A DNA stretch of 43,389 bases, taken from the IMG/VR virus record IMGVR_UViG_3300032238_000960, positions 1 through 43,389 of that record; one strand, written 5' to 3'. Positions 23,665 through 37,558 of the stretch are shown here, piece after piece. Positions within the stretch are counted from its first letter, which is position 1, and each line of letters opens with the position of its first letter. Source of the DNA: a virus. A program made the position numbers and the translations under genes. The notes below the pieces were generated by a model, which saw only the letters and a program-made list of their open reading frames with translations, did no database searches and was not told where the DNA came from.

Positions 23665-24427
23665 CTACAATCTCCGCATCTTGAATTTCTTCCGCATCGT
23701 GCTTGTATTTTGGCAGCAACTTATTAATGCCAGTTTGTATTGCAGTCAGCACATCGACGTCTCGCACCGAACGTTTAACTACTTCCAGAATCTGCATTAT
23801 AAGCATAAAGGCTTGATCGGCTTCCAATGTATATGCTTTGGTTTGCATCATACGTTGTTCAGCTTCAACAAGATCAGCACGACGAGATATTAACTCTAAT
23901 ACGTCTTTAGATGCATCGTATTCATTTAAACGCTCCTGTAAAAGATCGCCTATCTGCTCAAATGCATCAATGAAATCTGGGCTACCTAGTTTTGATCTAG
24001 CAAGGTTGTATGCTGATTCAATCTTACGATATTGATCAATACTAACACCTTCACCAGCAGCTTCAGCACGAACGTCAACCAATGCTGTTAGGTACGCAGT
24101 GTCATCCCTAAGACTAAATAATTCTGGATCATCTCGATGTGCATCTACTTTTTCCAGTAAGTCTTTTCCAGCTTTTGCAAACCTACGTCTATTTACTTTA
24201 TAAGCATGAGCCAAAAACTTAGGTTGATCGTTACGTTTGATTAATTCAATGCCATGGTGTTTACAGTAATCATGACCTGATATTGCTATTGCACGGCAAC
24301 GTACACGTTCACCATTCTTCTCAATAATGGCATTGCATATTAGATGCTCACCATGTTGAGTAATGCGGTACATACGTCCGTCTCTCTCTACATAACGAGA
24401 GTCATTAAATTCTTGTGCATAGTTCAT
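23657..24427 (-). CDS. terS: Terminase small subunit (candidate), 256 aa, leaderless start
   Basis: It lies directly before terL with an 8-base overlap, the usual place for the DNA-recognition subunit. The N-terminal part has a Cys/His pattern (CNAIIEKNGERVRCRAIAIS then HDYCKHHG) like a small zinc finger; the middle and C-terminus are helical and charged. ATG 24427 lies six bases after a TATACT box (24439-24434), so the mRNA is probably leaderless. The subunit assignment is by position and size; the sequence family is not certain. Confidence 0.65.
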   Translation of the reverse strand: MNYAQEFNDSRYVERDGRMYRITQHGEHLICNAIIEKNGERVRCRAIAISGHDYCKHHGIELIKRNDQPKFLAHAYKVNRRRFAKAGKDLLEKVDAHRDDPELFSLRDDTAYLTALVDVRAEAAGEGVSIDQYRKIESAYNLARSKLGSPDFIDAFEQIGDLLQERLNEYDASKDVLELISRRADLVEAEQRMMQTKAYTLEADQAFMLIMQILEVVKRSVRDVDVLTAIQTGINKLLPKYKHDAEEIQDAEIVDG

Positions 24428-24433
24428 CTCGTA

Positions 24434-24441
24434 AGTATACT
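24434..24441. promoter_or_regulatory. Palindromic AGTATACT: shared -10 box for two divergent genes
   Basis: AGTATACT is its own reverse complement, so it contains TATACT on both strands (24436-24441 on plus, 24439-24434 on minus). The plus ATG (24451) lies nine bases downstream and the minus ATG (24427) six bases downstream. Both genes would start at or within a few bases of their mRNA 5-prime end. No -35 box is clear on either side. Transcription start mapping would settle it. Confidence 0.6.
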
Positions 24442-24450
24442 GTCAGGGTT

Positions 24451-24711
24451 ATGAAAACATCACCCGATCACTACCGTGCTGTAGTAAAAAAACATTTTCA
24501 ACCAGTTTACGTAGCCAAAGCCTGGAACCTTGGTTTTGAATTATTCACAGCTATTAAATACATTGCTCGTTGTGGACATAAACCTGGTGAAACTGAATTC
24601 GATGATTTGTCAAAAGCTATCTGGTTTTTGGCGTTCTATCTCACTAGTAATACTGACAAGTGTGATGAGATTGTCAAATTACTGACACCCGAAAAAACAA
24701 GCCTCCCGTAG
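24451..24711 (+). CDS. DUF3310-like protein, 86 aa
   Basis: The sequence MKTSPDHYRAVVKKHF, then LGFELFTAIKYIARCGHK and FDDLSKAIWFLAFYL, fits the DUF3310 pattern of phage proteins (HY near the start, GNAIKYI-like helix, DL-KA-W-L helix); the function of that family is unknown, possibly nucleotide related. It is the only plus-strand gene within the leftward virion operon and starts from the palindromic -10 at 24434-24441. A longer in-frame start at 24415 would include the promoter and is rejected. Its stop codon is inside a terminator hairpin. Confidence 0.65.
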   Translation: MKTSPDHYRAVVKKHFQPVYVAKAWNLGFELFTAIKYIARCGHKPGETEFDDLSKAIWFLAFYLTSNTDKCDEIVKLLTPEKTSLP

Positions 24712-24718
24712 GAGGCTT
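24692..24718 (-). terminator. Rho-independent terminator, mainly for the leftward transcript
   Basis: AAGCCTCC and GGAGGCTT form an 8-bp stem with loop CGTA. On the minus strand the stem is followed by GTTTTTTC, so it should end transcription after the repeat protein gene (stop at 24724). It also covers the last codons of the plus-strand DUF3310-like gene, whose downstream sequence has a weaker T-run, so it may work both ways. Terminase genes therefore need their own promoter. Confidence 0.75.
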
Positions 24719-24723
24719 GATCT

Positions 24724-26574
24724 TTATTTCTTGACTTGGTACTGAGTACCTTCTTCAGCTTTTTGTTTAATTCGTTCGTATTTTCCGCCCTTACCGTAAT
24801 CACCAGATCGGTAGTAGTTCAACAAGTTTTGTCCTCTACCTTCCATTTCTGAATTAAGGCGTTCAGTAATTCCTTGATCAGGATGTTGCTTAAGCGTCTG
24901 ATCTTCTCGGAACTTACCGAATTTCTGTCGCAAACTATTCCTGGTGTCCTCATCAAGATTATCCGCTTTCATCATGCGTTCAAGATGATTTGCACCAACA
25001 TTCAAACCTTTGCGCAATGTAGCATCAAATGCTTCACCAAGATATTCATCTGGCTTGCGGATTGCTCTTTGTGAAGCAACTGCTTGGCGTGTCATGACTG
25101 ATCCGCCTCCGTAAGATGGACTGCTAGGTCGCTGTGCGCCACCGCCTCCACCTTGGTTTCCGCCTCCTTGATTTCCACCACCAGGTGAATAGCTTGGGTT
25201 TCCTGCACCTGATTCCATAGGAGTAGTTTGTGGAGCTGGTGCTTGTGGCTTAGGCCCACGATTCATCCATGGAGCACGATACCAATCGGCTGGTGCAAAG
25301 CGATCGTAAAGTTCGGATGCCGTAGCTGCTGCCGCAAGAACGCCAGCGCCTTTACCAACGCCTTTAAGAATACGTCCTCCAGTTGCGACTGCAGCTGCTC
25401 CTCGACCAGCACGAGCCGCTGTTGCAGCTCCTGCACGTGCACCACCACGAGCCGCTGTTGTTGCTCCAGTTCGTGCCCCACCACGTGCACGGGATGTTGT
25501 AGCCGCTGGGGTTGGCGTTGCCGTTGTTGGTGCTGGCGTTGCGGATGCACGTCCTCGACCACGCCCTGTACCTGTTGCAGTTGCAGTTGGAGTTGGTGTT
25601 GGAGTTGCTGTTGCAGATCCACGTCCTCGACCACGCCCTGTACCTGTTGCAGTTGCAGTTGGAGTTGGTGTTGGAGTTGCTGTTGCAGATCCACGTCCTC
25701 GACCACGTCCTGTTGGCGTTGGAGTTGGAGTTGGAGTTGGTGTTGCTGTTGCTGTTGCAGACCCACGTCCTCGACCAGTACCCGTACCAGTTCCAGTGGA
25801 TGTACCAGTAGATGTGCCAGTAGATGCACCGCTTGTGCGTGAACCACGTCCACGTCCTGTGCCAGTACCCGTTCCAGTAGCTGTGCCAGTTCCTGTACTC
25901 GCGGTAGCTCCACCAGTGCGCGATCCTCGTCCCCGACCCGTGCCAGTACTTGTACCTGTTGCAGCAGTACCTGTACCTGTGGCGGTAGTGCCTGTAGAAG
26001 TACCAGTAGCAGTACCTGATGTAGATCCACTAGCACGAGATCCACGACCACCACGTGATCGTGTTGTGCCGGTTGCTGTACTTGCTGTACCAGTACCGCT
26101 AGGGGTTGCTGTTGCTCCAGGTGCGCCAGCAGCTGCTGCTGCTCCGCCGCCACCTATGATAGGGGATGGTCTTCGTGCCACGGTTGTTCCTCCAGAACTG
26201 TGATTGTTGTTTTGTGCATTTGCTAGCTGTCTTGCTCTTTTGCCTAATTTATGGGTTAGAACTCCCATACCTACTGATGCAACACCTAATCCCGCACCTA
26301 TTTTCATTAAGTTTGGGCCAAGATTCTCTAAATTTTTCCCAGACCAAAATCCAGCTTTTCTCTCAAATTCATCATGTTCACGTTGTTTTCGTCGTTGTGT
26401 TTTTGAATCAAACTCTCCACTATGATCTGGTACTACAAGGCCACTTTTTAATACAATATCCCGTTGATACCCTTTAATAAAATCTTTTCGATAATTTGTA
26501 TATCGTGATCCTTTAAATGGTCCAGGATGTGATTCTTCACTGGGCTTTTTAAAAACTGATTCTTCGCGTGGCAT
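24724..26574 (-). CDS. Gly/Thr/Arg-rich repeat protein of the virion operon, 616 aa
   Basis: ATG 26574 follows the small Cys-rich gene by one base. Residues 1-70 are charged; 88-110 are a hydrophobic Gly-rich stretch ([20 protein letters not shown]). Residues 140-410 are almost only Thr, Gly, Ala, Ser, Arg and Pro, built of repeats around [10 protein letters not shown] and [17 protein letters not shown]. Residues 410-440 are again hydrophobic. The C-terminal 100 residues ([20 protein letters not shown]) resemble the C-terminus of the 325-residue protein at 32626-33603. Role unknown; a basic, flexible, DNA-associated virion protein is possible. The repeats are prone to length change. Confidence 0.65.
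25549..25710. repeat. 72-bp tandem repeat in the Gly/Thr/Arg-rich gene
   Basis: The sequence acgtcctcgacc starts at 25549, 25621 and 25693, a strict 72-bp period. The stretch from 25561 is almost identical to the one from 25633. Each unit codes for 24 residues with a [12 protein letters not shown] core and a Pro-Thr run. Exact DNA identity between the units points to recent duplication or slippage, not just protein-level constraint. Confidence 0.85.
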
Positions 26575-26575
26575 T

Positions 26576-26671
26576 TTAGCAGTTCTTTTTTTTGCATCCA
26601 GCGCACTTACAACCTGCCGGATGTGGTTTTTCTACACCCATAATTTTGGACATTGATTTAACTTTAGCCAT
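26576..26671 (-). CDS. Small Cys-rich protein, 31 aa
   Basis: The frame starts with ATG 26671 at a TAATG junction with the gene before it and ends one base before the repeat protein start. The sequence begins [20 protein letters not shown] and ends in [11 protein letters not shown], with four Cys residues spaced as CxCxxCxxxxC, suggesting a small metal-binding knuckle. The part [13 protein letters not shown] resembles SMSQMMGIERKEH in the 81-residue protein encoded just before it. The joins to both neighbours support it as a real gene. Function unknown. Confidence 0.55.
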
Positions 26672-26916
26672 TATTTTGCCCTCGCTCGTCCTTTGTAGCC
26701 TTTACCAATAACAACTTTACCACCAGGACGCAGGTGTTCTTTGCGTTCAATGCCCATCATTTGTGACATAGAAGGAGTTTTCTTAAAGCCATGTTCCTTC
26801 TTTTCCATCTGTTGCATTTGAGCACGTGTTGGAGCTTTTTTCATACCGTGTTCTTGACGTTCAATTTCTGGAAGGTCACGGGTAAACGTTTGAGCGTGAT
26901 TGATATTTTTATTCAT
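26671..26916 (-). CDS. Small basic protein with internal repeats, 81 aa
   Basis: The start is ATG 26916, which overlaps the stop of the upstream gene (ATGA). The protein has two and a half copies of a repeat of about 20 residues: IERQEHGMKKAPTRAQMQQ, then MEKKEHGFKKTPSMSQMMG, then IERKEHLRPGGK. It is rich in Lys, Arg, Met and Gln and ends in a basic tail (GKGYKGRARAK). Short repeat peptides of this kind often bind nucleic acid or a partner protein. No family is recognised. It belongs to the same transcript as the DUF6321-like gene before it. Confidence 0.55.
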   Translation of the reverse strand: MNKNINHAQTFTRDLPEIERQEHGMKKAPTRAQMQQMEKKEHGFKKTPSMSQMMGIERKEHLRPGGKVVIGKGYKGRARAK

Positions 26917-27164
26917 TTGCAGTTCCATGCACGAAGGCTTTTATTGATCCTGCTATTGGGATCGTTAGCTGTTTTTGAAGACGTGTTAACGCGCTTCATC
27001 CCTTCCATTCTTGCGCAAAAGCTTTTACGCCTTGATGCGTCTTTAGGTGTTTTAGGATTTGGAGCTGGTGGTTTCAAATTTAAACCCTCGGTTTTTTTGA
27101 AATGAGCGCGACCAGCCGCGTTCAATCCACCTTTTGGATTTTGGTATTTCTTAACGACACCCAT
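26913..27164 (-). CDS. DUF6321-like small basic protein, 83 aa, leaderless start
   Basis: The sequence GGLNAAGRAHFKKTEGLNLK and ASRRKSFCARMEGMK, ending in NKSLRAWNC, matches a conserved small phage protein pattern (DUF6321-like) found near packaging or structural genes of podoviruses. Function unknown. ATG 27164 lies seven bases after TACAAT (27177-27172), so the mRNA probably has no leader. This is the first gene of the leftward virion operon and is divergent from the gene at 27233. Confidence 0.65.
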   Translation of the reverse strand: MGVVKKYQNPKGGLNAAGRAHFKKTEGLNLKPPAPNPKTPKDASRRKSFCARMEGMKRVNTSSKTANDPNSRINKSLRAWNCK

Positions 27165-27171
27165 AAATATG

Positions 27172-27177
27172 ATTGTA
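27172..27177 (-). promoter_or_regulatory. -10 box of the leftward virion operon
   Basis: TACAAT on the minus strand lies seven bases before ATG 27164. It is preceded directly by TG. No good -35 box is visible at 17 bp. With the plus promoter at 27198-27226 it forms a 68-bp divergent region between two leaderless genes. Confidence 0.5.
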
Positions 27178-27197
27178 CATCACTGTTTTAAACGACA

Positions 27198-27226
27198 TTG
27201 CACTAGCAAGTCAGCAAGTATATACT
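27198..27226 (+). promoter_or_regulatory. Promoter of the HTH-methyltransferase operon
   Basis: TTGCAC (27198-27203) and TATACT (27221-27226) are 17 bp apart, a near-consensus vegetative promoter. ATG 27233 lies six bases after the -10, so translation would start at or next to the first mRNA base. The spacer contains the tandem AGCAAGTC AGCAAGTA, part of an element also seen at other early promoters in this window (GCAAGTATA, or TATACTTGC on the other strand). Confidence 0.75.
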
Positions 27227-27232
27227 ACACGT

Positions 27233-27706
27233 ATGTTGTCATCAGTAGTGTATGACCAGTTAATAATTGAATCGTTACTTATAACAGCGTCTCTCCCGCA
27301 GGAGAAACAAGGAAAATGTAAATTAACGATCGTTAAAACAGTTAGCGGGACATACACTTTTGAGTTTACGAGACCTTATGAAATGTGGTTAGTAAGCATA
27401 AGCAACGATAAGCAGCGACCATTCTTTATGGTTAATAAAGAAGATGATCGTATCAGTCTTGAGTTTTATAAAACGGATAAAGCTGCATATACAGCTTGGA
27501 GAAATTATGAGCAACGATACAACGGAAACAGCAGTGATCTCAGCAGAAAAGCCAGGTCTAGTTCATCCACTGTCATCACGAGAGTTGGAGATATTGAAAC
27601 AATTAAACAGCAAGCGAACCGCAAAAATGATCGCCGCAACTCTGGGGATCAGTCATCGAACGGTTCAATTTCACACGGACAATCTGTATTGGAAATTGTC
27701 GGTTAG
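27233..27706 (+). CDS. Unknown protein overlapping the LuxR-type gene, 157 aa, leaderless
   Basis: ATG 27233 follows the -10 box by six bases. Residues 1-95 look like a compact alpha-beta domain (VYDQLIIESLLITASLPQEK, TFEFTRPYEMWLVSISND, RPFFMVNKEDDRISLEFYKT). Residues 92-157 are Ser, Asn and Arg rich and low in structure, and this part is encoded by bases that also encode the LuxR-type protein in another frame. The tail may be only the by-product of that overlap, or the true stop may matter for coupling. No family is recognised. Confidence 0.55.
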   Translation: MLSSVVYDQLIIESLLITASLPQEKQGKCKLTIVKTVSGTYTFEFTRPYEMWLVSISNDKQRPFFMVNKEDDRISLEFYKTDKAAYTAWRNYEQRYNGNSSDLSRKARSSSSTVITRVGDIETIKQQANRKNDRRNSGDQSSNGSISHGQSVLEIVG

Positions 27707-27767
27707 TGGATTAAATGCACGTGACCGAGCTGTTAAACGCGCACGTGAACTTAGCTTAATCGATTAA
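27507..27767 (+). CDS. LuxR-type (GerE) HTH transcription regulator, 86 aa
   Basis: ATG 27507 has GGAGA six bases upstream; a start at 27444 would add 21 residues of upstream-gene sequence. Residues 20-80 are a clear LuxR C-terminal HTH: PLSSRELEILKQLNSKRTAK, then MIAATLGISHRTVQFHTDNL and YWKLSV. It has no receiver or ligand domain, only the DNA-binding part, as in small phage regulators. It overlaps the preceding gene by 200 bases in another frame and lies three bases before the methyltransferase start. It probably controls phage transcription. Confidence 0.75.
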   Translation: MSNDTTETAVISAEKPGLVHPLSSRELEILKQLNSKRTAKMIAATLGISHRTVQFHTDNLYWKLSVSGLNARDRAVKRARELSLID

Positions 27768-27769
27768 GC

Positions 27770-29128
27770 ATGAAATACTTATCGGTTTGCAGTGGCATAG
27801 AAGCTGCTTCCGTAGCTTGGCATGAATTAGGTTGGACACCAGTGGGGTTTTCCGAGATTGAGAAATTCCCATCTGGTGTTCTTCACGATGCGTTTCCTGA
27901 TGTTCCAAATTACGGAGATATGACTCAGTTTAAGGAGTGGCCAATTGAAAGAGGTTCAATTGACGTTATCGTTGGAGGAACCCCCTGCCAAGCGTTCTCC
28001 GTTGCGGGTTTACGGAAAGGACTCGATGATCCACGAGGAAATCTCTCGCTCACTTTCGTATCAATGGTTGAACACTTTAAGCCAGAATTCTTTATCTGGG
28101 AAAACGTGCCCGGTGTTTTGTCATCCAGCGGAGGACGGGATTTTGGCTCCCTCCTCACAGCGGTGGGGTACATCGGGTATGGGTGGGCCTACCGAGTGCT
28201 TGACGCTCAATACTTTGGAGTCCCCCAAAGACGCCGTCGAGTCTTCCTTGTCGGACATATTAGTGGCGATCCCAGACGTGCCGGAGAAATACTTTTTGAG
28301 CAAGAAAGCTTGCGATGGGATAATTCGCCGAGCCGAAAAAAGACAGAAGGCATTACCTCCGCTACTACTACAGGCTCTGTTAGCTGTAAGTGGGCAAAAG
28401 GAACAGGCGGACCCGCAGGAGATGAAGCCTACAACTTAGTTACTGTTTTGTATGATCATCATCCAAATGACAGTCGTATTGTTGGACCTGTATCGGAATC
28501 ACCAACAGTTGCGGCCAGGTGGGGAACTGGAGGAAACAATGTTCCGATTGTTCAACATACTATGCAACCACTGGCATTCGAACCTGGGTCAATTGCTAGG
28601 AATGCAGGTCCATCAGACCTAAGTCCTTTATGCCCAACGTTGAGAGCTGATATGGGTGACAATCAACCAGCAGTAATTGCTCTTGCTGAAAACACTATAG
28701 GTAGACAACCTATGAATGGTGGTAACGGCGATGGCTTTACCGTTGGCGGTCCTATGTACACGTTAAACGCAACTGGCGTACATGGTATATGTCAAACTGA
28801 AGAGCATAAGTCGTTTACACCATCATGTGTTCGATTAGGTAACGAAGCTCATTTACGTGACACTACAGGCACTATATTAGCCAGCCAAGCTAAGAATGGT
28901 GATAACCAGCCATTAGTATTGAATACTGTGCAGATGCTTGTACGAAGGCTTATGCCTATTGAATGTGAGCGGTTACAAGGTTTTCCTGATAATTGGACAG
29001 ACATACAGCCGCGTGGAAAACCTACCCCTGATAGTCCCAGGTATAAGGCTATTGGGAATTCGATGGCTGTACCAGTGATGAAATGGATTGGTAAACGAAT
29101 CGATCAAAAAAGAAACCAGGAGATTTAA
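27770..29128 (+). CDS. dcm: DNA cytosine C5 methyltransferase, 452 aa
   Basis: It transfers a methyl group from AdoMet to C5 of cytosine. Motif I is SVCSGIEAASVAWHELGW (residues 5-22), motif IV has the catalytic Cys (GGTPCQAFSVAG, Cys73), motif VI is ENVPG (111-115), motif VIII is QRRRRVF (153-159) and motif X is YKAIGNSMAVPVMKWIG (about 427-443). The target-recognition part (about 170-410) has the GPxSxLxPTLRA-type repeats typical of phage enzymes. No restriction enzyme is nearby, so protection of phage DNA is likely. Its 3-prime end overlaps ThyX, which converges on it, by four bases. A second gene is embedded in it. Confidence 0.9.
   Translation: MKYLSVCSGIEAASVAWHELGWTPVGFSEIEKFPSGVLHDAFPDVPNYGDMTQFKEWPIERGSIDVIVGGTPCQAFSVAGLRKGLDDPRGNLSLTFVSMVEHFKPEFFIWENVPGVLSSSGGRDFGSLLTAVGYIGYGWAYRVLDAQYFGVPQRRRRVFLVGHISGDPRRAGEILFEQESLRWDNSPSRKKTEGITSATTTGSVSCKWAKGTGGPAGDEAYNLVTVLYDHHPNDSRIVGPVSESPTVAARWGTGGNNVPIVQHTMQPLAFEPGSIARNAGPSDLSPLCPTLRADMGDNQPAVIALAENTIGRQPMNGGNGDGFTVGGPMYTLNATGVHGICQTEEHKSFTPSCVRLGNEAHLRDTTGTILASQAKNGDNQPLVLNTVQMLVRRLMPIECERLQGFPDNWTDIQPRGKPTPDSPRYKAIGNSMAVPVMKWIGKRIDQKRNQEI
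27945..28439 (+). CDS. Overprinted gene inside the methyltransferase, 164 aa
   Basis: A second frame on the same strand runs from TTG 27945, with AAGGAG at 27932-27937, to a stop at 28439. The C-terminal part (residues 80-149) reads GPTECLTLNTLESP, then SLSDILVAIPDVPEKYFLSK and KACDGIIRRAEKRQKALPP. From memory, very similar stretches (LTLNTSE, SLSDIL, KYFLSxKACxGILRRAxKRGKxLP) are widely annotated in phages next to or inside C5 methyltransferases. Residues 50-80 are probably less constrained. This points to a true dual-coding region. No function is known. Confidence 0.6.
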   Translation: MKEVQLTLSLEEPPAKRSPLRVYGKDSMIHEEISRSLSYQWLNTLSQNSLSGKTCPVFCHPAEDGILAPSSQRWGTSGMGGPTECLTLNTLESPKDAVESSLSDILVAIPDVPEKYFLSKKACDGIIRRAEKRQKALPPLLLQALLAVSGQKEQADPQEMKPTT

Positions 29129-29778
29129 CTCTCCTGGTTGTTTTGTTTTTTATCCCAAGCTTCCATGATGATTGGAATTTCTGTTCGCAGAATATCCGTT
29201 ATCTTATTAGCTATTTCTCGATGTTCTTTTTGCGTATCGTCTTTGCTCCGCAGCTCAATATAATGTAACCAGGATCTGATGCTTCCTGTCATGTACAAAG
29301 TTGTAGGCGTACATAGAGGCAAAATAAACCTAGCTGTTTCAGTAGCAAATCCTACTTCAAGCAGTTCCTCATAACATTCCATTGCATATTGAATTGCACC
29401 ATCCGCATCAACCAGCGCCCTCATTTGCTTATCGGTCATGCTATCTACGTCAACCTCTAAACTTGATTGCCTATTAGTAGCACCAGCTAAACGTTGATCC
29501 GGGAGGTGAATTGCATTGTCTACAACAGCATAACGCTGACTGAATTCTTGAAACGTAAAGCTTCTATGCCGCAGGATTTGTGCACTGATTGCTCTTGTAG
29601 TTTTGATTTCAAAACAAGCATATGCGTGTTCAAATACTGACCAATGGTTCTTCCTAATGCAATATCCAAGTAGTCCCATTGACGTTGAGTTTTGATTTTT
29701 AGGATTACTGACACGTGCAATATATGCTGTCATTGGTTCAGCATTGGGAGTAATCCATACAATCTTTGCATCATTCAT
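29125..29778 (-). CDS. thyX: Flavin-dependent thymidylate synthase ThyX, 217 aa
   Basis: ThyX makes dTMP from dUMP using FAD, NADPH and methylene-tetrahydrofolate. The signature RHR-X7-S is present as RHRSFTFQEFS (residues 70-80), followed by QRY. The length is near the family norm of 210-250. It supplies dTMP for phage DNA synthesis, together with the dUTPase at 33624-34049. It overlaps the previous gene by 8 bases and faces the methyltransferase gene tail to tail with four overlapping bases. Confidence 0.92.
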   Translation of the reverse strand: MNDAKIVWITPNAEPMTAYIARVSNPKNQNSTSMGLLGYCIRKNHWSVFEHAYACFEIKTTRAISAQILRHRSFTFQEFSQRYAVVDNAIHLPDQRLAGATNRQSSLEVDVDSMTDKQMRALVDADGAIQYAMECYEELLEVGFATETARFILPLCTPTTLYMTGSIRSWLHYIELRSKDDTQKEHREIANKITDILRTEIPIIMEAWDKKQNNQES

Positions 29779-30912: not shown

Positions 30913-31196
30913 TATGCGTCCTCGTCATCCAAGTGGAAACTAGGGAGTGCCACTGGCTTAGTTGTAGACAAACTGTTGATAACTTCATTAGCCAACTCAA
31001 GCATTGTCTTTGTGGGACATTTGCCGTTCTGGTTAATAACGCTTTCGCTATAAAGGAAATTCCATGCCTGAACAGGAGTAAACGTGTACTCATCAGGATC
31101 GGAGCTTGGTGTGATGTGAAATACTGGCCCAGTGGACGTAAGTCGGAGCATAACATTGAAGTCCGAATCTCGTCCTGCCTTACAGATTGTAATCAT
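30912..31196 (-). CDS. Unknown protein with acidic tail, 94 aa
   Basis: ATG 31196 has AAGGA about 8 bases upstream and a promoter at 31230-31258. The protein has strands at the N-terminus (MITICKAGRDSDFNVMLRLT) and a helical C-terminal half (TKTMLELANEVINSLS), ending FHLDDEDA, an acidic tail like that of SSB. Together with the tight TAATG join to ssb this suggests a partner in DNA metabolism. No family is recognised. Confidence 0.55.
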   Translation of the reverse strand: MITICKAGRDSDFNVMLRLTSTGPVFHITPSSDPDEYTFTPVQAWNFLYSESVINQNGKCPTKTMLELANEVINSLSTTKPVALPSFHLDDEDA

Positions 31197-31229
31197 TCTG
31201 TAGTCCTTCCGTAAAAATCAAACAGAGAC

Positions 31230-31258
31230 ATTATACCCGCAAGTAAGCATAGCTTCAA
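31230..31258 (-). promoter_or_regulatory. Promoter of the ssb-thyX operon
   Basis: On the minus strand TTGAAG (31258-31253) and TATAAT (31235-31230) are separated by 17 bp. The spacer ends ACTTGCGGG just before the -10, matching the CTTGC element at other early promoters. The mRNA would have a leader of about 28 bases with AAGGA before ATG 31196, so this gene is not leaderless. Confidence 0.75.
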
Positions 31259-31275
31259 TAGATGGATATACCATT

Positions 31276-31284
31276 TGTTACAAT
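31276..31284 (+). promoter_or_regulatory. Extended -10 promoter of the 3D-domain gene
   Basis: TGTTACAAT carries the extended TG before TACAAT (31279-31284). ATG 31290 is five bases downstream, which predicts a leaderless mRNA. No convincing -35 box is seen. The promoter lies about 40 bp from the divergent ssb promoter. Confidence 0.6.
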
Positions 31285-31289
31285 GAGCA

Positions 31290-31862
31290 ATGACTAAAGA
31301 GTACACTTCCCCTGGGCAAATTATTAACGCTGATGTAAGTGCATACTATCCAGCTAATACACGTATGCAGGGTGGGTATAAAACATTCAATGGAAACCCT
31401 GTTGGTCGTGGGCGTATTGCAGTAGATCCAGACACTATTCCATTTGGGTCAAAAGTGTTTATACCAGGATACGGTTGGGCTATTGCCGATGACACCGGCG
31501 GTGCTATTAAAGGTAATAGAATTGATCTAGGGTATGGTCGTAATGAAGGCAAAGCTGCTCTAGCGTACGGAAGGCAAAAGCATCAAATTCACGTTTATCC
31601 ACCAGACACTGATTTGATGGGAGCTAAGGATCCAGCGCAGCTCGAAGAGTTTATGCGTAACAAGTATAACTTCGATACCGTCATTAAACCTATCCCAGTT
31701 AAACCTATTGAAAAGGCAATGAATCAACAGTTCGCTCCTAGTGCAATTAGCAACAAAAGTGCACTTGGATCAATGATGGTTAATAGTCAATCCGGAATGT
31801 TTCCAGAAGCTAACAACGCAGTCAGTATGCAACAGCTAATGAAAATGTATGGCAAGCAATAA
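31290..31862 (+). CDS. 3D-domain protein (possible cell-wall lysin), 190 aa
   Basis: Residues 15-105 carry a 3D (three-Asp) domain: DVSAYYPANTRMQGGYKTF, then GRGRIAVDPDTIPFGSKVF, IPGYGWAIADDTGGAIKG and NRIDLGYGRN. 3D domains occur in MltA-like and YocH-like wall-acting enzymes of Gram-positive and some other bacteria. The C-terminal 80 residues are Met/Asn/Gln rich and may attach to other virion parts. There is no signal peptide. It is the best candidate wall-degrading enzyme in the window but lies outside the late operon, so a virion-associated role is equally possible. Confidence 0.7.
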   Translation: MTKEYTSPGQIINADVSAYYPANTRMQGGYKTFNGNPVGRGRIAVDPDTIPFGSKVFIPGYGWAIADDTGGAIKGNRIDLGYGRNEGKAALAYGRQKHQIHVYPPDTDLMGAKDPAQLEEFMRNKYNFDTVIKPIPVKPIEKAMNQQFAPSAISNKSALGSMMVNSQSGMFPEANNAVSMQQLMKMYGKQ

Positions 31863-31864
31863 GT

Positions 31865-32107
31865 ATGAAATTTAAGATTTCAACTGAGGATGATATGTAC
31901 TTGGCGGTTACTGCTATACATAAACACTTTAAGGATAATCCAGACGAACCATACGTTGAGTTGATTGCTGACAAAGACGGCGTAATGGAAGTTGTTGGAA
32001 GGATTAATAACCCAGCATTTACCGAATTGATATACGCTGTAAGTTATGCAATGGGCAATCTAAAACGTAAAAACTCTGTACGCACGGTAAAAATAAACAC
32101 GAAATAA
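31865..32107 (+). CDS. Small unknown protein, 80 aa
   Basis: It starts two bases after the 3D-domain gene and is in the same transcript. The sequence has a helix with aromatic and acidic residues (EDDMYLAVTAIHKHFKDNPD), a strand-turn-strand part (YVELIADKDGVMEVVGRINN) and a basic tail (NLKRKNSVRTVKINTK). No family is recognised. It is followed by a region with a possible small RNA and a strong terminator. Confidence 0.5.
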   Translation: MKFKISTEDDMYLAVTAIHKHFKDNPDEPYVELIADKDGVMEVVGRINNPAFTELIYAVSYAMGNLKRKNSVRTVKINTK

Positions 32108-32117
32108 ACACGTGTTT

Positions 32118-32271
32118 AATGTAGAATAAACACGCCACCGAGAGGTGAGCATTGTATGAAAGCGTGAAAACCTCGTAAGTACTACCTGTCATACTAACTC
32201 TGCAAAACAAAAAACACCTGCTTCTTGATCCCGTAAACCCGGATGAAGATCAAGCTCTGCGGGTGTTTTTT
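32118..32271 (+). ncRNA. Possible small RNA or structured leader before the nuclease gene
   Basis: The 177 bp between genes contain TAGAAT (a -10 candidate near 32119), CACC-GAGA-GGTG (a small hairpin with a GNRA-type loop near 32135), a pair of short sequences (AGGT and ACCT) and the terminator at 32211-32271. A short peptide ATGAAAGCGTGA (three codons) sits inside. A transcript of about 140 nt ending at the terminator is plausible, but no known RNA family is recognised. Confidence 0.3.
32211..32271 (+). terminator. Strong rho-independent terminator after the 3D-domain operon
   Basis: The outer stem is ACACCTGC (32214-32221) with GCGGGTGT (32259-32266) and the inner stem CTTGATC with GATCAAG (32224-32230, 32248-32254). 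A T-run follows at once, and an A-run precedes it, so the minus strand may use it too. The -10 of the nuclease gene begins directly after the T-run. Confidence 0.85.
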
Positions 32272-32272
32272 G

Positions 32273-32278
32273 TATAAT
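32273..32278 (+). promoter_or_regulatory. -10 box of the SNase-like gene
   Basis: TATAAT is directly after the T-run of the terminator and six bases before ATG 32285, so a leaderless mRNA is predicted. The -35 region overlaps the terminator stem and is not clear. Transcription of the upstream operon could interfere with this promoter. Confidence 0.6.
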
Positions 32279-32284
32279 GCCAGT

Positions 32285-32629
32285 ATGAAAGCAACACTGT
32301 ACCAATACGCTCTTAAGAATATCTCCGTGGTAGATGGTGACACCCTAAAAGCTGATCTTGATCTAGGATTTGGCGTGTCTTTGACAGCTAAAAAGATTCG
32401 CCTCGAGCACGTTAATTGCCCCGAAAAAGATACACCTGAAGGTATTGAGGCCAGGAACTTTACAGCTGGTTGGATTATGGGCGGAAAAGACCTAGTGGTA
32501 ATTGTAAAGAACCACCGAGAAGACAAGTATGGACGTATCTTAGGATCCGTCATTATGGACGGCCAAAGCTTAGCTGATCTACTTAAAATTAATAATCATG
32601 GAGTAGATTACGAAGGCGGCAAACGTTAA
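32285..32629 (+). CDS. SNase-like (thermonuclease) protein, 114 aa
   Basis: The start is ATG 32285, because an ATG at 32243 lies inside the terminator. The staphylococcal nuclease core is seen: VVDGDTLKADLDLGFG (residues 15-30), KIRLEHVNCPEKDTPEGIEA (active Arg and Glu), and KYGRILGSVIMDGQ (second Arg), with SLADLLKINNHGV. It is short but has all core elements. There is no signal peptide, so it acts inside the cell or in the virion. It may digest host DNA. It converges on the following gene with a four-base overlap. Confidence 0.75.
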   Translation: MKATLYQYALKNISVVDGDTLKADLDLGFGVSLTAKKIRLEHVNCPEKDTPEGIEARNFTAGWIMGGKDLVVIVKNHREDKYGRILGSVIMDGQSLADLLKINNHGVDYEGGKR

Positions 32630-33603
32630 ACGCCAACCTCTCGATACCTACTCATGACCGCAGGATCAGAAATCATTCCAGAGTCGATACCTTTATCAAA
32701 TGCCTTCTGGTGATAAATCCTTGCAAAGAACAAATCCTCAAGCTCTTTGGCTTGTTGTTCTGTGAGCTTATCTCTTCGAGCTACGTGGTGTAAGTAATCT
32801 ACAGCTGGGTCAAGACCTCGTTGCAATGCAAAGTCAAAGACTTCTCCAAGTTGATTAAACACAGCAGGTCTTGATCCGCTTGCTCCACCAAGTTGCTTTG
32901 CAGCGGCAGGGTTAAAACCTCTACGTGTAAAGTCACCAGATGCTACCTGTCCTGATTCACCATAAATTTGTGCTCGTCTAGCAGCGCTTGCAGCTTCCTG
33001 CTCAGGTGTTTCATATAGCCCTAGAAACTTACCTAAAGGGATAGTAACGTCACGCTCAAATTGCGTAGCAGGTGGTGTCTTAGAGCGATCAGTAGGGGTA
33101 GTTGCAGCTTGAATGTTTGCGTTATAACGAGCGCTTTGACGTCCTTTATTCCACAGCTCAGGAAGATGAGGCAAGGTTTCCTGTGCTCCCAAAGCGACTA
33201 ATGCCGTATTTGGATTTCTAGCTCCTCTAAGTAATCCTGCACCTGCACCATTATAGTTGGATACAGCAGGGTTTAAACTAGCTAATCGAGCAATTGATCC
33301 AATGCCACCAACAACGTTACCAACTGACGGATCAAACTCTCCTTGAGCAATGCTTGCACCTTGATTCGCAAGGTTTAAAGCATCTCCAACAAGAAACGTT
33401 TTGCCACCAGGATAACGTGATAATGTCCCACCTGGCCCACGAACTTTAGTAGCAGGTGCTACTGGACGTGTCCTACCAGTTAAAGGACGTGTAGGTGTTG
33501 CAGCAGGTGCAGTAAAGTAGTTTGCAGCTTTCTCTGCACCATGCTTAATACCGCTGACAGCACGGCTTCCGTAGTCACGTAACGTACTCAAGTAATCAGG
33601 CAT
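32626..33603 (-). CDS. Virion-type protein related to the Gly/Thr/Arg repeat protein, 325 aa
   Basis: Residues 1-70 are basic and Pro/Thr/Arg rich (TAPAATPTRPLTGRTRPVAP), the middle is Ala/Gly-rich with a hydrophobic stretch (QGEFDPSVGNVVGGIGSIAR). The C-terminal 75 residues (LGEVFDFALQRGLDPAVDYL, then DKLTEQQAKELEDLFFARIY) resemble the C-terminus of the 616-residue protein. The gene is alone, on the minus strand, under its own leaderless promoter (TTGCTATAAT, 5 bases before ATG 33603). A virion or DNA-associated role is inferred. Confidence 0.6.
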   Translation of the reverse strand: MPDYLSTLRDYGSRAVSGIKHGAEKAANYFTAPAATPTRPLTGRTRPVAPATKVRGPGGTLSRYPGGKTFLVGDALNLANQGASIAQGEFDPSVGNVVGGIGSIARLASLNPAVSNYNGAGAGLLRGARNPNTALVALGAQETLPHLPELWNKGRQSARYNANIQAATTPTDRSKTPPATQFERDVTIPLGKFLGLYETPEQEAASAARRAQIYGESGQVASGDFTRRGFNPAAAKQLGGASGSRPAVFNQLGEVFDFALQRGLDPAVDYLHHVARRDKLTEQQAKELEDLFFARIYHQKAFDKGIDSGMISDPAVMSRYREVGV

Positions 33604-33608
33604 GATTC

Positions 33609-33617
33609 ATTATAGCA
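33609..33617 (-). promoter_or_regulatory. Extended -10 of the repeat-related gene
   Basis: TGCTATAAT on the minus strand (33617-33609) is an extended -10 (TG, one base, TATAAT) and ends five bases before ATG 33603. A leaderless transcript is predicted. The box overlaps the end of the dUTPase gene, so readthrough from that gene would also give mRNA with a longer leader. Confidence 0.65.
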
Positions 33618-33623
33618 ACTTGA

Positions 33624-34049
33624 TTACTGCTGTCCTGTACTGCCAAATCCACCTTGCCTGGGCTTTAATGCTGTAACAACATCAGGTGAGTCAGACAGCT
33701 TTGCAAACACCAGCTGAGCAATACGCTGATACGGTTCTATAACAAAATCTTTTGATCCCAGGTTCATCAATATAACCTTGACCTCATCTTCGTAATCACT
33801 GTCTATGACGCCAGGTGCATTCAATACAAAGACACCATGCTTAGCTGCCATTCCACTACGACTGCAAAGCAATCCAACAACATCATTGCCGAATTTTGTT
33901 GAGACTCCCGTAGGTATAATCGCATGAGATCCTTTAGTTAGGATATGTGTCTCAGGCAACGATGCACGTAGATCGTAACCAGCAGAACCACCCGTAGCCT
34001 TCTGTGGCATTAGGGCAAAGTCATTTGTTAAAAGAGTAAAAATCACCAT
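33624..34049 (-). CDS. dut: dUTPase, 141 aa
   Basis: It hydrolyses dUTP to dUMP, the ThyX substrate, and prevents uracil in DNA. All five trimeric dUTPase motifs are seen: AGYDLRA, SRSGMAAKHGV, GVIDSDYEDEVKVILMN, RIAQLVF and RQGGFGSTGQ. The start is ATG 34049, because the earlier ATG (34091) lies inside a terminator hairpin and the family starts a few residues before the ATGGSAGYDL motif. The start follows the T-run of the terminator by a few bases, with no clear ribosome site. Confidence 0.9.
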   Translation of the reverse strand: MVIFTLLTNDFALMPQKATGGSAGYDLRASLPETHILTKGSHAIIPTGVSTKFGNDVVGLLCSRSGMAAKHGVFVLNAPGVIDSDYEDEVKVILMNLGSKDFVIEPYQRIAQLVFAKLSDSPDVVTALKPRQGGFGSTGQQ

Positions 34050-34060
34050 AGTTAATAAAA

Positions 34061-34106
34061 AAGAGATGTAGCGCAGGGCGTTTCCATGCATGGCGCTACA
34101 CCTCTT
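34061..34106 (-). terminator. Rho-independent terminator between the HTH operon and dut
   Basis: AAGAGATGTAGCGC pairs with GCGCTACACCTCTT (5 bp, one A-C mismatch, 8 bp), with an 18-base loop. On the minus strand it is followed by TTTTATTA. It should stop most transcripts from the small HTH genes before dut, unless antitermination operates. Confidence 0.8.
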
Positions 34107-34123
34107 ATCCTCGTTTTACCACA

Positions 34124-34333
34124 TCAGTTTGCACGACAACGTTGAATGCTATTCAACAGTTGCTCGTGCTTAAGGCTGTTTAGCACTCGCTTGTGTTGAG
34201 TGCCAAGCAGAATACGTCGAATCTGCTCATACGATACACCAAACTTACTAGCAAGCATTAAACGCTTGTGACCTTCTCCGTGTAGGAGATGGATCTGTCG
34301 AACCTGGTTAGCAGAAAGCTTCTTTGTAGACAT
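34124..34333 (-). CDS. Small HTH DNA-binding protein, 69 aa
   Basis: Residues 6-50 (LSANQVRQIHLLHGEGHKRL, MLASKFGVSYEQIRRILLGT) form a helix-turn-helix like the short resolvase- or HNH-associated HTH found in phages. It is basic. It starts two bases after the stop of the preceding gene. A regulatory role is likely; target unknown, though the repeated TATACTTGC elements are candidates. Confidence 0.65.
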   Translation of the reverse strand: MSTKKLSANQVRQIHLLHGEGHKRLMLASKFGVSYEQIRRILLGTQHKRVLNSLKHEQLLNSIQRCRAN

Positions 34334-34335
34334 AA

Positions 34336-34515
34336 TTACAGACGCTTACGCAGCTCTTGACCAGCATAGCGAAATAGAGCTTTCAGAATGTCAATCTCTA
34401 GCTGTGGAATTTCATTCTCCAAATCACGCTTTGATAGATAATCGCCAATAGGCTGATCTTTGTGACGAGTCACGTTAAGTTTTTTGCAAATATAATCAAC
34501 CAATTTTTCCTTCAT
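34336..34515 (-). CDS. Small charged protein, 59 aa
   Basis: ATG 34515 has GGAGGT eight bases upstream and is the best start; a longer frame to 34539 would take in the ribosome site. The protein is helical (KEKLVDYICKKLNVTRH, then KRDLENEIPQLEIDILKALF). No family is recognised. It is the first gene after the promoter at 34547-34552 and is coupled to the small HTH gene. Confidence 0.5.
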   Translation of the reverse strand: MKEKLVDYICKKLNVTRHKDQPIGDYLSKRDLENEIPQLEIDILKALFRYAGQELRKRL

Positions 34516-34543
34516 TGTAAGTACCTCCAAGATTTGCACCCAC

Positions 34544-34552
34544 GCAAGTATA
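34544..34552 (-). promoter_or_regulatory. TATACTTGC element: promoter of the small HTH operon
   Basis: The minus strand reads TATACTTGCGTGGGTGCAAAT. TATACT (34552-34547) is a plausible -10, giving a start near 34540 and a leader of about 25 bases with GGAGG before ATG 34515. The same TATACTTGC core is found at 34924 and 38015, where it is immediately followed by a TGG extended -10. The -35 is weak (TGTGTA). Confidence 0.5.
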
Positions 34553-34648
34553 TCATTAGTTCATATGCATACACATTAAGGTTTCTACGGCGGGAGAAAT
34601 GAGGTTTTTTGGAGATGCTCTATAGGAGGAGGGGACAATATTTTTAAA

Positions 34649-34663
34649 GGTAGTAGGGGTACA
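34649..34663 (+). repeat. 15-bp direct repeat, copy 1
   Basis: GGTAGTAGGGGTACA, preceded by TTTTTAAA. An identical copy is at 36175-36189, also preceded by a T-run, both in non-coding DNA. Both are followed within ten bases by a CCACACC stretch. Confidence 0.7.
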
Positions 34664-34744
34664 TTGCCACACCCCCCACACAAAGCGTAAATAATAAAGC
34701 TAGGGGGAGGGGGGCGGTACGGGAAACACACGCACGTATATATC

Positions 34745-34776
34745 TCTCAGGGAGCGATAGCGACCTGAGACTATCG
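34745..34776. other. Two interlocked inverted repeats (alternative hairpins)
   Basis: TCTCAGG (34745-34751) pairs with CCTGAGA (34764-34770), and CGATAG (34755-34760) pairs with CTATCG (34771-34776). The arms are interleaved A-B-A-B, so the two stems exclude each other or form a pseudoknot; the single-base gap between the second arms makes a simple H-type pseudoknot strained. It could be a switch or a protein-binding DNA site. Confidence 0.45.
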
Positions 34777-34923
34777 ATGAGGAGGAGGGCGGACGGAGGA
34801 TGGATAGAAGATCAGATCAATACAGCTAAGCGGATACACACATACTAAGACCGAGCGAAGCGAGGTTTTTTGGGGCCCCACATGCCGGAAAAGTACAATA
34901 ATCGCCCGGAGTTGTTCAATAAT

Positions 34924-34946
34924 TATACTTGCTTGCTTGGTATACT
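34924..34946 (+). promoter_or_regulatory. Promoter with TATACTTGC element, lipoprotein operon
   Basis: TATACTTGCTTGCTTGG (34924-34940) is directly followed by TATACT (34941-34946), an extended -10 (TGG before it). The 17-bp element occurs with one change at 38015-38031, also directly before a -10. The leader to ATG 34993 is about 40 bases with AGGGGGA as ribosome site. Confidence 0.65.
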
Positions 34947-34992
34947 AGGGGTGCGGCACTTGGGCTTGCATTGTGAAACATTAGGGGGATAT

Positions 34993-35103
34993 ATGAATCC
35001 TAAACGGTTGTTTGTTTGGCTTTTGGTTTTGGCGTTCGGGCTTGCTACCTTCGGGGCTTGCAACGATGGCAGGATAGAGAATGCTACGGAGGTGGCACGA
35101 TGA
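34993..35103 (+). CDS. Small lipoprotein candidate, 36 aa
   Basis: ATG 34993 has AGGGGGA seven bases upstream. The sequence is MNPKRLFVWLLVLAFGLATF followed by GACNDGR: two positive charges, a hydrophobic core and a Cys after Gly-Ala, a near-consensus lipobox. The mature part would be only about 14 residues. Its stop overlaps the start of the next gene (ATGA). Phage lipoproteins often act in superinfection exclusion or as spanins; here only the membrane address is visible. Confidence 0.5.
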   Translation: MNPKRLFVWLLVLAFGLATFGACNDGRIENATEVAR

Positions 35104-35465
35104 CACAGGGTGACTTCTTCATTGTCTTGACTCTTGATGTCAAGGTAGGGCACAGTATTGATGCCCTCGAATCTAGGATTGCATCGGCGGGGGCTTGTGC
35201 TATCGCTTTTCAGGGGCTTGACATTTCGGCAGATAACTTCCAACGCTCTACCGATACGCAATTGCAAGTCGATGTAAACCTTGATGTGCTTGTACCTCAT
35301 CAATTCCGTAGGCTTGCTATGTGCTTGGCGGATATCGCTGTTGTTTCTATCGGCTATACCGGCGAAGTCTACATTTATAATGAGCTTATCAGAGTTGAGG
35401 GCGAATGTGACTTTGATGAGGTCGGCGGCTGGGACCATCACCAGAGGACAATAGAGAATGATTAG
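35100..35465 (+). CDS. Unknown protein of the lipoprotein operon, 121 aa
   Basis: The start is ATG 35100, with GGAGG upstream and an ATGA overlap with the lipoprotein gene. The protein looks alpha-beta (FFIVLTLDVKVGHSIDALES, CAIAFQGLDISADNFQRSTD, VVSIGYTGEVYIYNELIRVE) and is acidic. No family was recognised. It overlaps the next gene by 8 bases, so all three genes of this operon are coupled. Confidence 0.55.
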   Translation: MTQGDFFIVLTLDVKVGHSIDALESRIASAGACAIAFQGLDISADNFQRSTDTQLQVDVNLDVLVPHQFRRLAMCLADIAVVSIGYTGEVYIYNELIRVEGECDFDEVGGWDHHQRTIEND

Positions 35466-35649
35466 CGTACACCTGCATGATAAAGCTGCTTTATGTGGAT
35501 TGACTCTAGTGGATGCATCTAACCTATACGGGCATCACGGTCATACACTTCGCATTGCTGTTATGAAAGGGGATAGAGTCCTAAGTTTTGGGACTACCTC
35601 TAAGATTCAAGAGTACCTGCAAGGTTGGCTCGATTCCTCTAGGGTGTAA
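35458..35649 (+). CDS. Unknown small protein, 63 aa
   Basis: It starts inside the end of the gene before it (ATGATTAG overlap). The sequence reads MISVHLHDKAALCGLTLVD, then YGHHGHTLRIAVMKGDRV, with several His residues and a Gly turn. It is the last gene before a strong terminator. No family is recognised. Confidence 0.5.
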   Translation: MISVHLHDKAALCGLTLVDASNLYGHHGHTLRIAVMKGDRVLSFGTTSKIQEYLQGWLDSSRV

Positions 35650-35666
35650 AGCCTTTTGATTATATG

Positions 35667-35695
35667 AAGCCCCTGCTAGAATCTAGCAGGGGCTT
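35667..35695 (+). terminator. Strong rho-independent terminator after the lipoprotein operon
   Basis: AAGCCCCTGCTA and TAGCAGGGGCTT form a perfect 12-bp stem around a five-base loop, followed by TTGTTTTG. The stem is the longest perfect inverted repeat in this part of the window and could act on both strands. Confidence 0.85.
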
Positions 35696-36066
35696 TTGTT
35701 TTGCCTTAGCTCTTTTCTAGGGATCTGTGCGAGCTGCTTGCCAGCTAAGTAAACTTACCGGACCGAGGCTACCAGAGCCAAGCGAATCGAAACGACCCGG
35801 CCGGACGCACAAAGCCTATCGCATATCCACACGAATGCACCCACCGGAAGAAGAAGAAACAAAACAGGAATACCGGCAGTCAAGTGCAATGAAGCGAAGC
35901 ATTCTTGCACGATAGAACTGACGGTTAACTGTGTGTGGTTATTCTTTTATGGTTGCATTCCCATTCTTCACACCTCTCTATGTTCTCGATGTACCTTATA
36001 TGCTTTGTGTGTGGGGGTGTGGCAATGTACACATCTCTTATAGATTTCCCTCACACTCTGGATATC

Positions 36067-36092
36067 TCTATGCGAACGCACGTGAGTATAGA
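36067..36092. repeat. Structured repeat, copy 1 (TCTAT...ATAGA arms)
   Basis: A 16-base core (GCGAACGCACGTGAGT, 36072-36087) flanked by complementary arms TCTAT and ATAGA. Copy 2 at 36261-36286 has the same core but TCTAG and CTAGA, so one base pair differs on both sides in a compensating way. Palindrome CACGTG lies in the core. Confidence 0.75.
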
Positions 36093-36174
36093 CGTTCGGG
36101 GTGCTCTATGCTTGAGCGAATGCGAGAGGATACGGTCTCGGTATCTGGGTAGCTTCGGTCTTCTCTTATTTTTA

Positions 36175-36189
36175 GGTAGTAGGGGTACA
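36175..36189 (+). repeat. 15-bp direct repeat, copy 2
   Basis: GGTAGTAGGGGTACA, identical to 34649-34663 and lying between the two structured repeats. It is preceded by ATTTTTA and followed by CTCTCCCCACACC. Confidence 0.7.
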
Positions 36190-36260
36190 CTCTCCCCACA
36201 CCGCACACAGGACGCTGGTAAGTATCACACAGCACACAGAAGGAAAAGGTTTTGGTTGTC

Positions 36261-36286
36261 TCTAGGCGAACGCACGTGAGTCTAGA
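36261..36286. repeat. Structured repeat, copy 2 (TCTAG...CTAGA arms)
   Basis: The core at 36266-36281 is identical to that of copy 1, 194 bp away. The arms TCTAG and CTAGA keep pairing despite the change T to G and A to C. The flanking TGTC and GACA also pair around a two-base bulge, so the stem may be longer here. Confidence 0.75.
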
Positions 36287-36533
36287 CATAAGGCTCCCCT
36301 ATAGTTTTTTATATTTCTGCCCAGGTCTCTAACTCCGCCCTCTCTATGCCTGAGTGCACACGAAGGGATATGAAGGGGTCTCCGTCCCGCTTTAGCGGGA
36401 TCAGCCCGCCCTTAGATCTCCCCTAAGAAAAGCTTACACAAACTGAGATGTAATGTAGAGAAGAATTGTTTAACAAAGTGCAGAAACATACAGCCCCGCG
36501 CAGCGGAAAAAATTTTTTGGGGCTAAAAAAGCC

Positions 36534-36567
36534 TTCCGGTATTTTTTTGTATATTTCCGGTATTTTT
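36534..36567 (+). repeat. Two direct repeats TTCCGGTATTTTT
   Basis: The 13-mer occurs at 36534-36546 and 36555-36567, 21 bp apart start to start (two turns of DNA helix), in AT-rich non-coding DNA. This spacing is like iterons or operators read from one face of the helix. Only two copies are visible. Confidence 0.6.
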
Positions 36568-36726
36568 GACGCAGCTAAATTTGCTTTGCTGGTTCGCCTT
36601 GCAAGTACGGCTCCTTGGTTTTTGGCTGGTCAATCGGCGTTAGCGTCCATCCTCCCGAGCTGCCTTGCTTTGTTTTGTCCTCGTTTTGGGTGCTCTTGAT
36701 ATCCTGGCGTTTTGTTGTCTGTGCTC

Positions 36727-36757
36727 TTGTGATTTTATACCTACTGGGTGGTATAAT
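36727..36757 (+). promoter_or_regulatory. Promoter of the Cys-rich gene (leaderless)
   Basis: TGGTATAAT (36749-36757) is an extended -10 with consensus TATAAT. TTGTGA (36727-36732) is 19 bp upstream and is a weak -35. ATG 36764 lies six bases after the -10, so the first base of the mRNA is expected at or next to the start codon. Confidence 0.7.
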
Positions 36758-36763
36758 CCTTGC

Positions 36764-37558
36764 ATGTTTACTTTACCAATGGCAACGGCTCTGCCATCAA
36801 TGAGCCGCCCTTCCTCCTCTGACGTCCAAGCCGTCCTCGCCTCCATGGTGTCTGCCATCGAGATAAGCCGTAACGGTAAGATTGGCCCGATATCGGCTAC
36901 ATCTGCCTCTCAGTTATCGTGTCCCGGTAGCCAAGAGGGTGACCCGTTCCGCTGTCCGTTTTTGGGTGCTGGGTGCTTTGCGGAAGGCAATATGCAAGGT
37001 ATGCATACCCGCACCTTGAATGCTCTTATTCCAATGGTGGCGGCTTGGGCTACGGCTGAGGATGTCGCACGGGCCGAAGCTCTTGCCCTTGACGGCTTGA
37101 CGGGAAAGCGTCCTTGCCGTGTGCATGTTGTCGGGGATTGTAAGACACCTGCAGCGGCTCGAATCCTGAGCGAAGCCGCTGCCCGATATACCGCAAAGCA
37201 TGGTCAGGTCTGTTATACCTATACTCACGCGTGGCGGTCTGTTATGCGTTCAGACTGGGGCGGGGTGTCCGTGCTGGCGTCTACTGAGCGTCCGTCTGAT
37301 TTGCCTGATGCCGATGCTCGTGGGTTTGGCTGTGCGATGGTGGTGGACCACCACGAGGGTAAGGGGCTTGTAGACCTTGGCAATGGATTCAAGGGTATAC
37401 CGTGTCCTGAGCAAGTAGGCACGAAGGAAAGCTGCCTTGCCTGTGGTTTGTGCTTCCGGGCGGATTGGCTACGCTCTAAAAAACTGGTCATCCTCTTGGG
37501 TGCTCACGGTCAAGGCGTGAAAAAAGTCAAGGCTACGCTAGGCAATCTTAATGATTAG
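36764..37558 (+). CDS. Cys-rich phage protein (GP88/DUF7227-like), 264 aa, leaderless
   Basis: The start is ATG 36764, placed by the promoter; an earlier ATG at 36665 would include the promoter itself. Residues 31-62 have ISRNGKIGPISATSASQLSC, followed by CPFLGAGCFAEGN; the middle has RVHVVGDCKTPAAARILSEA and YTYTHAWRSV; the end has a Cys cluster (IPCPEQVGTKESCLACGLCF). The pattern fits phage GP88- or DUF7227-like proteins, whose role is unknown; the Cys pattern suggests bound metal. Base composition is visibly richer in G and C than in the virion genes, suggesting separate origin. Confidence 0.6.
   Translation: MFTLPMATALPSMSRPSSSDVQAVLASMVSAIEISRNGKIGPISATSASQLSCPGSQEGDPFRCPFLGAGCFAEGNMQGMHTRTLNALIPMVAAWATAEDVARAEALALDGLTGKRPCRVHVVGDCKTPAAARILSEAAARYTAKHGQVCYTYTHAWRSVMRSDWGGVSVLASTERPSDLPDADARGFGCAMVVDHHEGKGLVDLGNGFKGIPCPEQVGTKESCLACGLCFRADWLRSKKLVILLGAHGQGVKKVKATLGNLND

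Follow-up and report, generated by a model that had tools for sequence, protein, structure and literature searches.

Predicted leaderless starts at -10 boxes in an uncultured phage family, and a candidate divergent promoter built on one palindromic -10

How is expression launched at phage genes whose -10 boxes lie almost on the start codon? The window (the whole stretch of DNA analyzed here), from an uncultured freshwater phage, is identical to the IMG/VR record IMGVR_UViG_3300032238_000960, comprising 43,389 bases with a G+C content of 45%, which does not imply a complete genome; its landmark genes are given in Table 1. For the 15-kb stretch 22000-37000, no DNA-level match was found among 50,697 phage records. 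The first-pass annotation had listed eight ATG codons preceded at 5-9 nt by TATAAT, TATACT or TACAAT, and had read them as the starts of leaderless mRNAs coexisting with SD-led genes. Re-reading of the sequence reproduced all eight hexamers and gaps exactly. These ATGs open ORFs of 83-325 aa, and an SD match of at least 4 nt is found at 0/8 of them. Two of the eight, 24427(-) and 24451(+), are non-independent cases, their boxes using overlapping parts of one palindrome, AGTATACT. A ninth site, CTTGG-TAAAAT-6-ATG at 2511(-), had been overlooked; its ORF (1-2511(-)), of at least 837 codons, is truncated at the record's left edge and has this TGG-TAAAAT-6-ATG start of its own.

Table 1. Positions of the -10 boxes, the genes that they precede, and other features of the window and of outside-family loci.
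Feature	Position	Strand	Remarks
Major capsid protein	17519-18568
Portal, P22-type	19503-21797
Large terminase	21934-23664
DNA cytosine methyltransferase	27770-29128
ThyX	29125-29778
-10 TAAAAT	2518..2523	-	TGG before hexamer; gap 6 to ATG 2511(-)
-10 TATACT	24434-24439	-	gap 6 to ATG 24427(-)
-10 TATACT	24436-24441	+	gap 9 to ATG 24451(+)
-10 TACAAT	27172..27177	-	gap 7 to ATG 27164(-)
-10 TATACT	27221..27226	+	gap 6 to ATG 27233(+)
-10 TACAAT	31279..31284	+	gap 5 to ATG 31290(+)
-10 TATAAT	32273..32278	+	gap 6 to ATG 32285(+)
-10 TATAAT	33609..33614	-	TGC before hexamer; gap 5 to ATG 33603(-)
-10 TATAAT	36752..36757	+	TGG before hexamer; gap 6 to ATG 36764(+)
Gene, 256 aa	23657..24427	-	first of late (terminase, portal, capsid) operon; position of small terminase
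Gene, 86 aa	24451..24711	+	divergent; matches phage families annotated as nucleotide kinase
Gene, 83 aa	26913..27164	-	conserved phage protein, first of unit; phrog_4689, 5.5e-26
Gene, 157 aa	27233..27706	+	first of unit containing the DNA cytosine methyltransferase
Gene, 190 aa	31290..31862	+	N-terminal part like phage families including L-alanyl-D-glutamate peptidases
Gene, 114 aa	32285..32629	+	endonuclease; phrog_452, 2.2e-24
Gene, 325 aa	32626-33603	-	opened by ATG 33603(-); no match to a PHROGs family
Gene	36764-37558	+	opened by ATG 36764(+)
-10 box of leadered unit	31230..31235	-	about 33 nt before ATG 31196(-); SD GGAAGGA
Promoter-like TGG-TATACT	34941..34946	+	46 nt before ATG 34993; AGGGGG ahead of start
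Palindrome AGTATACT	24434..24441	both	common -10 of divergent genes 24427(-) and 24451(+)
CAT-N6-AGTATACT-N6-ATG, outside-family loci	L170 517-542; L149 10657-10682; L104 3488-3513; L100 792-817; L199 307-332

Boxes of these three hexamers at 5-9 nt before a start were counted nine times against 0.19 expected from the window density (50 window gene starts; Poisson p ~1e-12), a count that includes the doubtful GTG start of 34336-34539, so that eight stand. This GTG was set aside, a better ATG with GGAGGT lying downstream, as were boxes at 26166(+) and 10830(-), whose ORFs lie opposite other genes or within them. With a broader hexamer set and a gap of 5-7, the window ORFs of at least 60 aa gave 10 boxes versus 2.8 expected (p 6e-4). 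The base just before the hexamer is preferentially G (64%). A conserved -35 was not found, the best TTGACA match averaging 2.97 of 6 positions versus 2.88 in shuffled sequence, and promoter strength is therefore uncertain; most of the flagged sites had been missed by a generic promoter scan because that scan required a -35.

The comparison was extended to relatives of the phage, obtained as 80 loci from a terminase scan of viral_contigs (70-92% identity of the terminase protein) and reduced, after near-duplicates were dropped, to 42 non-redundant contigs totalling 614 kb; many of the metagenomes among them are presumably of freshwater origin. A scan of these contigs for -10 boxes gave a sharp excess at gap 5-7 before ORF-opening ATGs, with 98 boxes versus 30.5 expected (p 2.5e-22). 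For the window and relatives together, observed and expected numbers were 107 and 25.5 at ATG, 6 and 10.9 at GTG, and 16 and 15.8 at TTG; there was no peak at GTG, TTG or CTG, and no second peak at longer distances from the start. The same scan showed no significant excess in lambda (0 versus 2.1 expected), P22 (1 versus 1.5), Pelagibacter phage HTVC104P (9 versus 9.9) or Roseobacter phage CRP-235 (6 versus 3.8). Could A+T-rich upstream sequences, together with the many hexamer variants allowed, have produced such boxes by chance? Upstream regions are indeed denser in hexamers than the genome overall, but reversed or complementary control hexamers gave no comparable peak, and the excess is limited to gaps 5-7 and to ATG and is kept in orthologues; the comparative data already refute this reading, to which we assign a negligible probability.

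The Cutibacterium phage PA6 (L091) displayed a weak excess at gap 5-7 before ATG (6 versus 2.2 expected), which suggests that leaderless genes may occur in this actinophage too.

At orthologous starts the gap is kept although the flanks are replaced. A TANNNT box is found 6-9 nt before the ATG of 24427(-) in 31/33 distinct orthologous upstreams, and much of the family uses a start codon eight codons deeper into the gene, with the box displaced to match; 11 distinct upstreams have this shifted start with a strong box. The box is kept in 10/10 distinct orthologous upstreams of 27233(+) (gap 5-6), in 23/33 of 27164(-) (gap 5-9), in 4/5 of 31290(+) (gap 5), in 7/14 of 32285(+) (gap 5-7) and in 7/16 of 24451(+), for which the gap is 6 in most of the diverged orthologues keeping the divergent layout. 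Support from relatives amounts to one for 36764(+), where L085 keeps TGG-TATAAT-6-ATG while the upstream sequence diverges, and to zero for 33603(-), for which no relative with an alignable start was found in viral_contigs. Some of the exceptions at 32285(+), 24451(+) and 27164(-) look operon-internal, behind another reading frame, and in some relatives GGAGG-like sites replace the box of 27164(-). Alternatively, the boxes might be true promoters, with the ATG next to them incidental and translation starting from an SD-led codon further downstream; some ORFs do contain in-frame ATGs further in, and the start calls were made from homology alone. This we consider very unlikely, as several orthologues are homologous down to the first residues (for 26913(-), the gene opened by 27164(-), the shift is 0 in all 23 box-keeping upstreams), and promoter position alone would not give a peak at ATG without one at GTG, TTG or CTG.

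The orthologues of 26913(-) differ among themselves in start type, leaderless-type or SD-led (L043, L046 and L058 versus L009 and L028), and offer a natural series for the study of switching initiation mode. In five other relatives (L066, L067, L069, L080 and L081), each with a predicted tRNA-Asn gene, a tRNA-like T-arm lies directly upstream of this leaderless-type orthologue, with the -10 box starting immediately behind the T-arm.

Among all homology-anchored starts in the relatives, SD matches of at least 4 nt were found at 10/64 leaderless-type starts versus 218/305 other starts (p 8e-17); the 64 leaderless-type starts are all accounted for by six flagged genes, and none occurs in the other gene families tested. 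Together with the 0/8 of the window, these counts agree with the absence of SD sites that forms part of the sequence definition of leaderless genes (PMC3160421). The box is carried at 36/94 starts facing a divergent neighbor and at 20/468 starts within tight operons, where control hexamers numbered 4 and 5, respectively. Leadered units of the SD type coexist with these genes, as the first-pass annotation had stated: each of 31196(-), 34993(+) and 38072(+) is preceded at about 33-46 nt by a -10 box and also shows SD-like sites.

A further motif, TATACTTGC, is enriched both in the window (4 versus 0.65 expected) and in the relatives (27 versus 2.3), and in the window it occurs at promoter-like places (27214, 34544, 34925 and 38016); it is possibly part of an operator or of an extended promoter motif. 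A 14-bp operator, GCAAGTATACTTGC, was rejected, its window matches being near chance (5 versus 2.4) though its half, TATACTTGC, is enriched. The over-representation of the TATACTTGC extension and the palindromic nature of AGTATACT would also suit a reading of the TATACT-like boxes as protein-binding sites such as operators, with leadered mRNAs issuing from true promoters further upstream. We judge this very unlikely: the hexamers differ (TATACT, TACAAT, TATTAT, TATAAT) and have in common only the -10 consensus, yet they keep the same gap; at 24427(-) and 24451(+) the sequence upstream in relatives is either unrelated or made up of the beginning of the opposite gene's coding sequence; and the SD sites usual in leadered mRNAs here are absent.

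A gap of 5-7 nt places a normal sigma-70-type transcription start on the A of the ATG. Taking the position of the boxes, their spacing and its conservation across relatives, the lack of SD sites and the exclusive use of ATG, all read directly from the sequences, leaderless mRNA is the best explanation, and we consider it very likely that the transcripts start on the ATG or only a few nucleotides away from it. The promoters would be of the sigma-70 type, with the -10 box so near the gene that the polymerase, presumably that of the host, starts at or near the A of the ATG; translation would then proceed from the 5'-terminal AUG without an SD, probably by 70S initiation, and the later genes of each operon would rely on their SD sites. 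The first-pass interpretation of leaderless mRNAs beside SD-led genes is strongly supported by the comparative evidence (gap peak, orthologues and lack of SD), except that the 9-nt gap of 24451(+) predicts a leader of 2-4 nt. Its claim that the first genes of both virion transcripts begin in this way stands for 24427(-), the first gene of the terminase-portal-capsid operon; the 325-aa protein of 33603(-) matched no PHROGs family that would tie it to a second virion unit.

Leaderless genes are generally recognized in sequence by a TANNNT located some 12 bp before the start (PMC3160421), a sign demonstrated experimentally in Deinococcus (PMC12340547). The first T of the phage hexamers likewise lies about 12 bp before the start, the gap being 5-7 at 7/8 sites and 9 at one. 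As in the leaderless genes of Actinobacteria and Deinococcus-Thermus (PMC3160421, PMC3898074, PMC12340547), the distance of the -10 is the same, SD sites and a clear -35 are lacking, and SD-led operon genes are found alongside; unlike those cases, the phage starts span a virus family and are located at orthologous first genes of units. The phage hexamers are near TATAAT, as has been reported for medium-G+C genomes (PMC3160421). M. tuberculosis uses leaderless ATG and GTG alike (PMC3898074), whereas the phage family uses ATG only, GTG falling below expectation. Leaderless transcripts of phages and mobile elements are likewise known for lambda cI and for the C-protein mRNAs of restriction-modification systems, such as AhdI (PMC3160421, PMC9031893, PMC5333194), but these are single regulators, while here several units of one genome are concerned, including the structural operon; lambda itself gave no peak by the same scan.

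That the host uses leaderless initiation, as the first-pass annotation had concluded, is not established, since the distant protein matches are split between Actinobacteria and Alphaproteobacteria and the restriction to ATG is unlike mycobacteria. The nearest isolates infect Microbacterium and Cellulosimicrobium for the portal (24% identity), Streptomyces and Rhodobacteraceae for the capsid protein, and Rhizobium and Roseobacter-type bacteria for the terminase. Terminase scans of genome_contigs found no relative, and WhiB is absent in 29 relative records. Frequent leaderless genes (19% on average in PMC3160421) would agree well with a host among the Actinobacteria, though the lack of leaderless GTG differs from mycobacteria (PMC3898074).

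The palindrome between 24427(-) and 24451(+) lies within 24428-24450, the 23 nt that separate the two back-to-back ATGs. It is kept in 22 relatives (among L001-L042) with 20-23 nt between the ATGs, whereas the spacers separating the box from the ATGs are variable in sequence. Published bidirectional promoters have symmetric -10 elements in common, with the polymerase bound one way at a time, and prefer divergent start distances of 18, 10 and 23 bp with small variations allowed (PMC12825309). AGTATACT likewise provides overlapping, symmetry-related -10 elements on both strands, and predicts a start separation of about 21-24 bp. The 24428-24450 region and its 22 related loci probably constitute a compact bidirectional promoter, leaderless both ways, in which one palindromic -10 would serve both strands, the late operon being read back-to-back with the small divergent gene, and the shared promoter of about 20 nt would be occupied by the polymerase in one orientation at a time. 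Similar to the bidirectional promoters of PMC12825309 and of earlier work cited there, the -10 hexamers overlap, the starts diverge around one short sequence and exclusive polymerase binding is expected; unlike them, both phage products are predicted to be leaderless, and the intergenic region therefore holds little beyond the shared -10 and two spacers.

Viral_contigs were also scanned for the layout CAT-N6-AGTATACT-N6-ATG, requiring both flanking ORFs to be at least 50 aa, with AGATATCT, a palindrome of equal composition to AGTATACT, as a control. Among the matches listed, both ORFs were present in 15/118 for AGTATACT versus 1/120 for AGATATCT (p 1.6e-4; p ~0.004 with family members removed). 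Ten of these 15 listed matches are outside the phage family and include a UvsX-like recombinase and a metallophosphoesterase; some are mutually related, leaving about seven independent ones as judged by eye. Whether the layout represents a minimal divergent phage unit, in which a single palindromic -10 would give two AUG-starting transcripts and launch two operons in a mutually exclusive way from about 20 bp, with unrelated phages sharing the design, is evenly balanced on present evidence. Neither leaderless genes nor bidirectional promoters are new in themselves; family-wide leaderless operon starts, and two of them fused on one palindromic -10, look new, and no prior description of this combination was found in the open-access literature.

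Most leaderless genes described so far in phages are isolated examples, lambda cI being one. In the present case, leaderless starts appear to open many units throughout a large uncultured virus family, the late structural operon among them. Standard gene callers that seek SD sites may misplace starts of this type, and the ATG-only rule and strict gap constrain the host translation machinery. The shared AGTATACT promoter would represent a very compact divergent switch, testable on a short synthetic fragment, and bears on the possible viral use of polymerase competition at bidirectional promoters.
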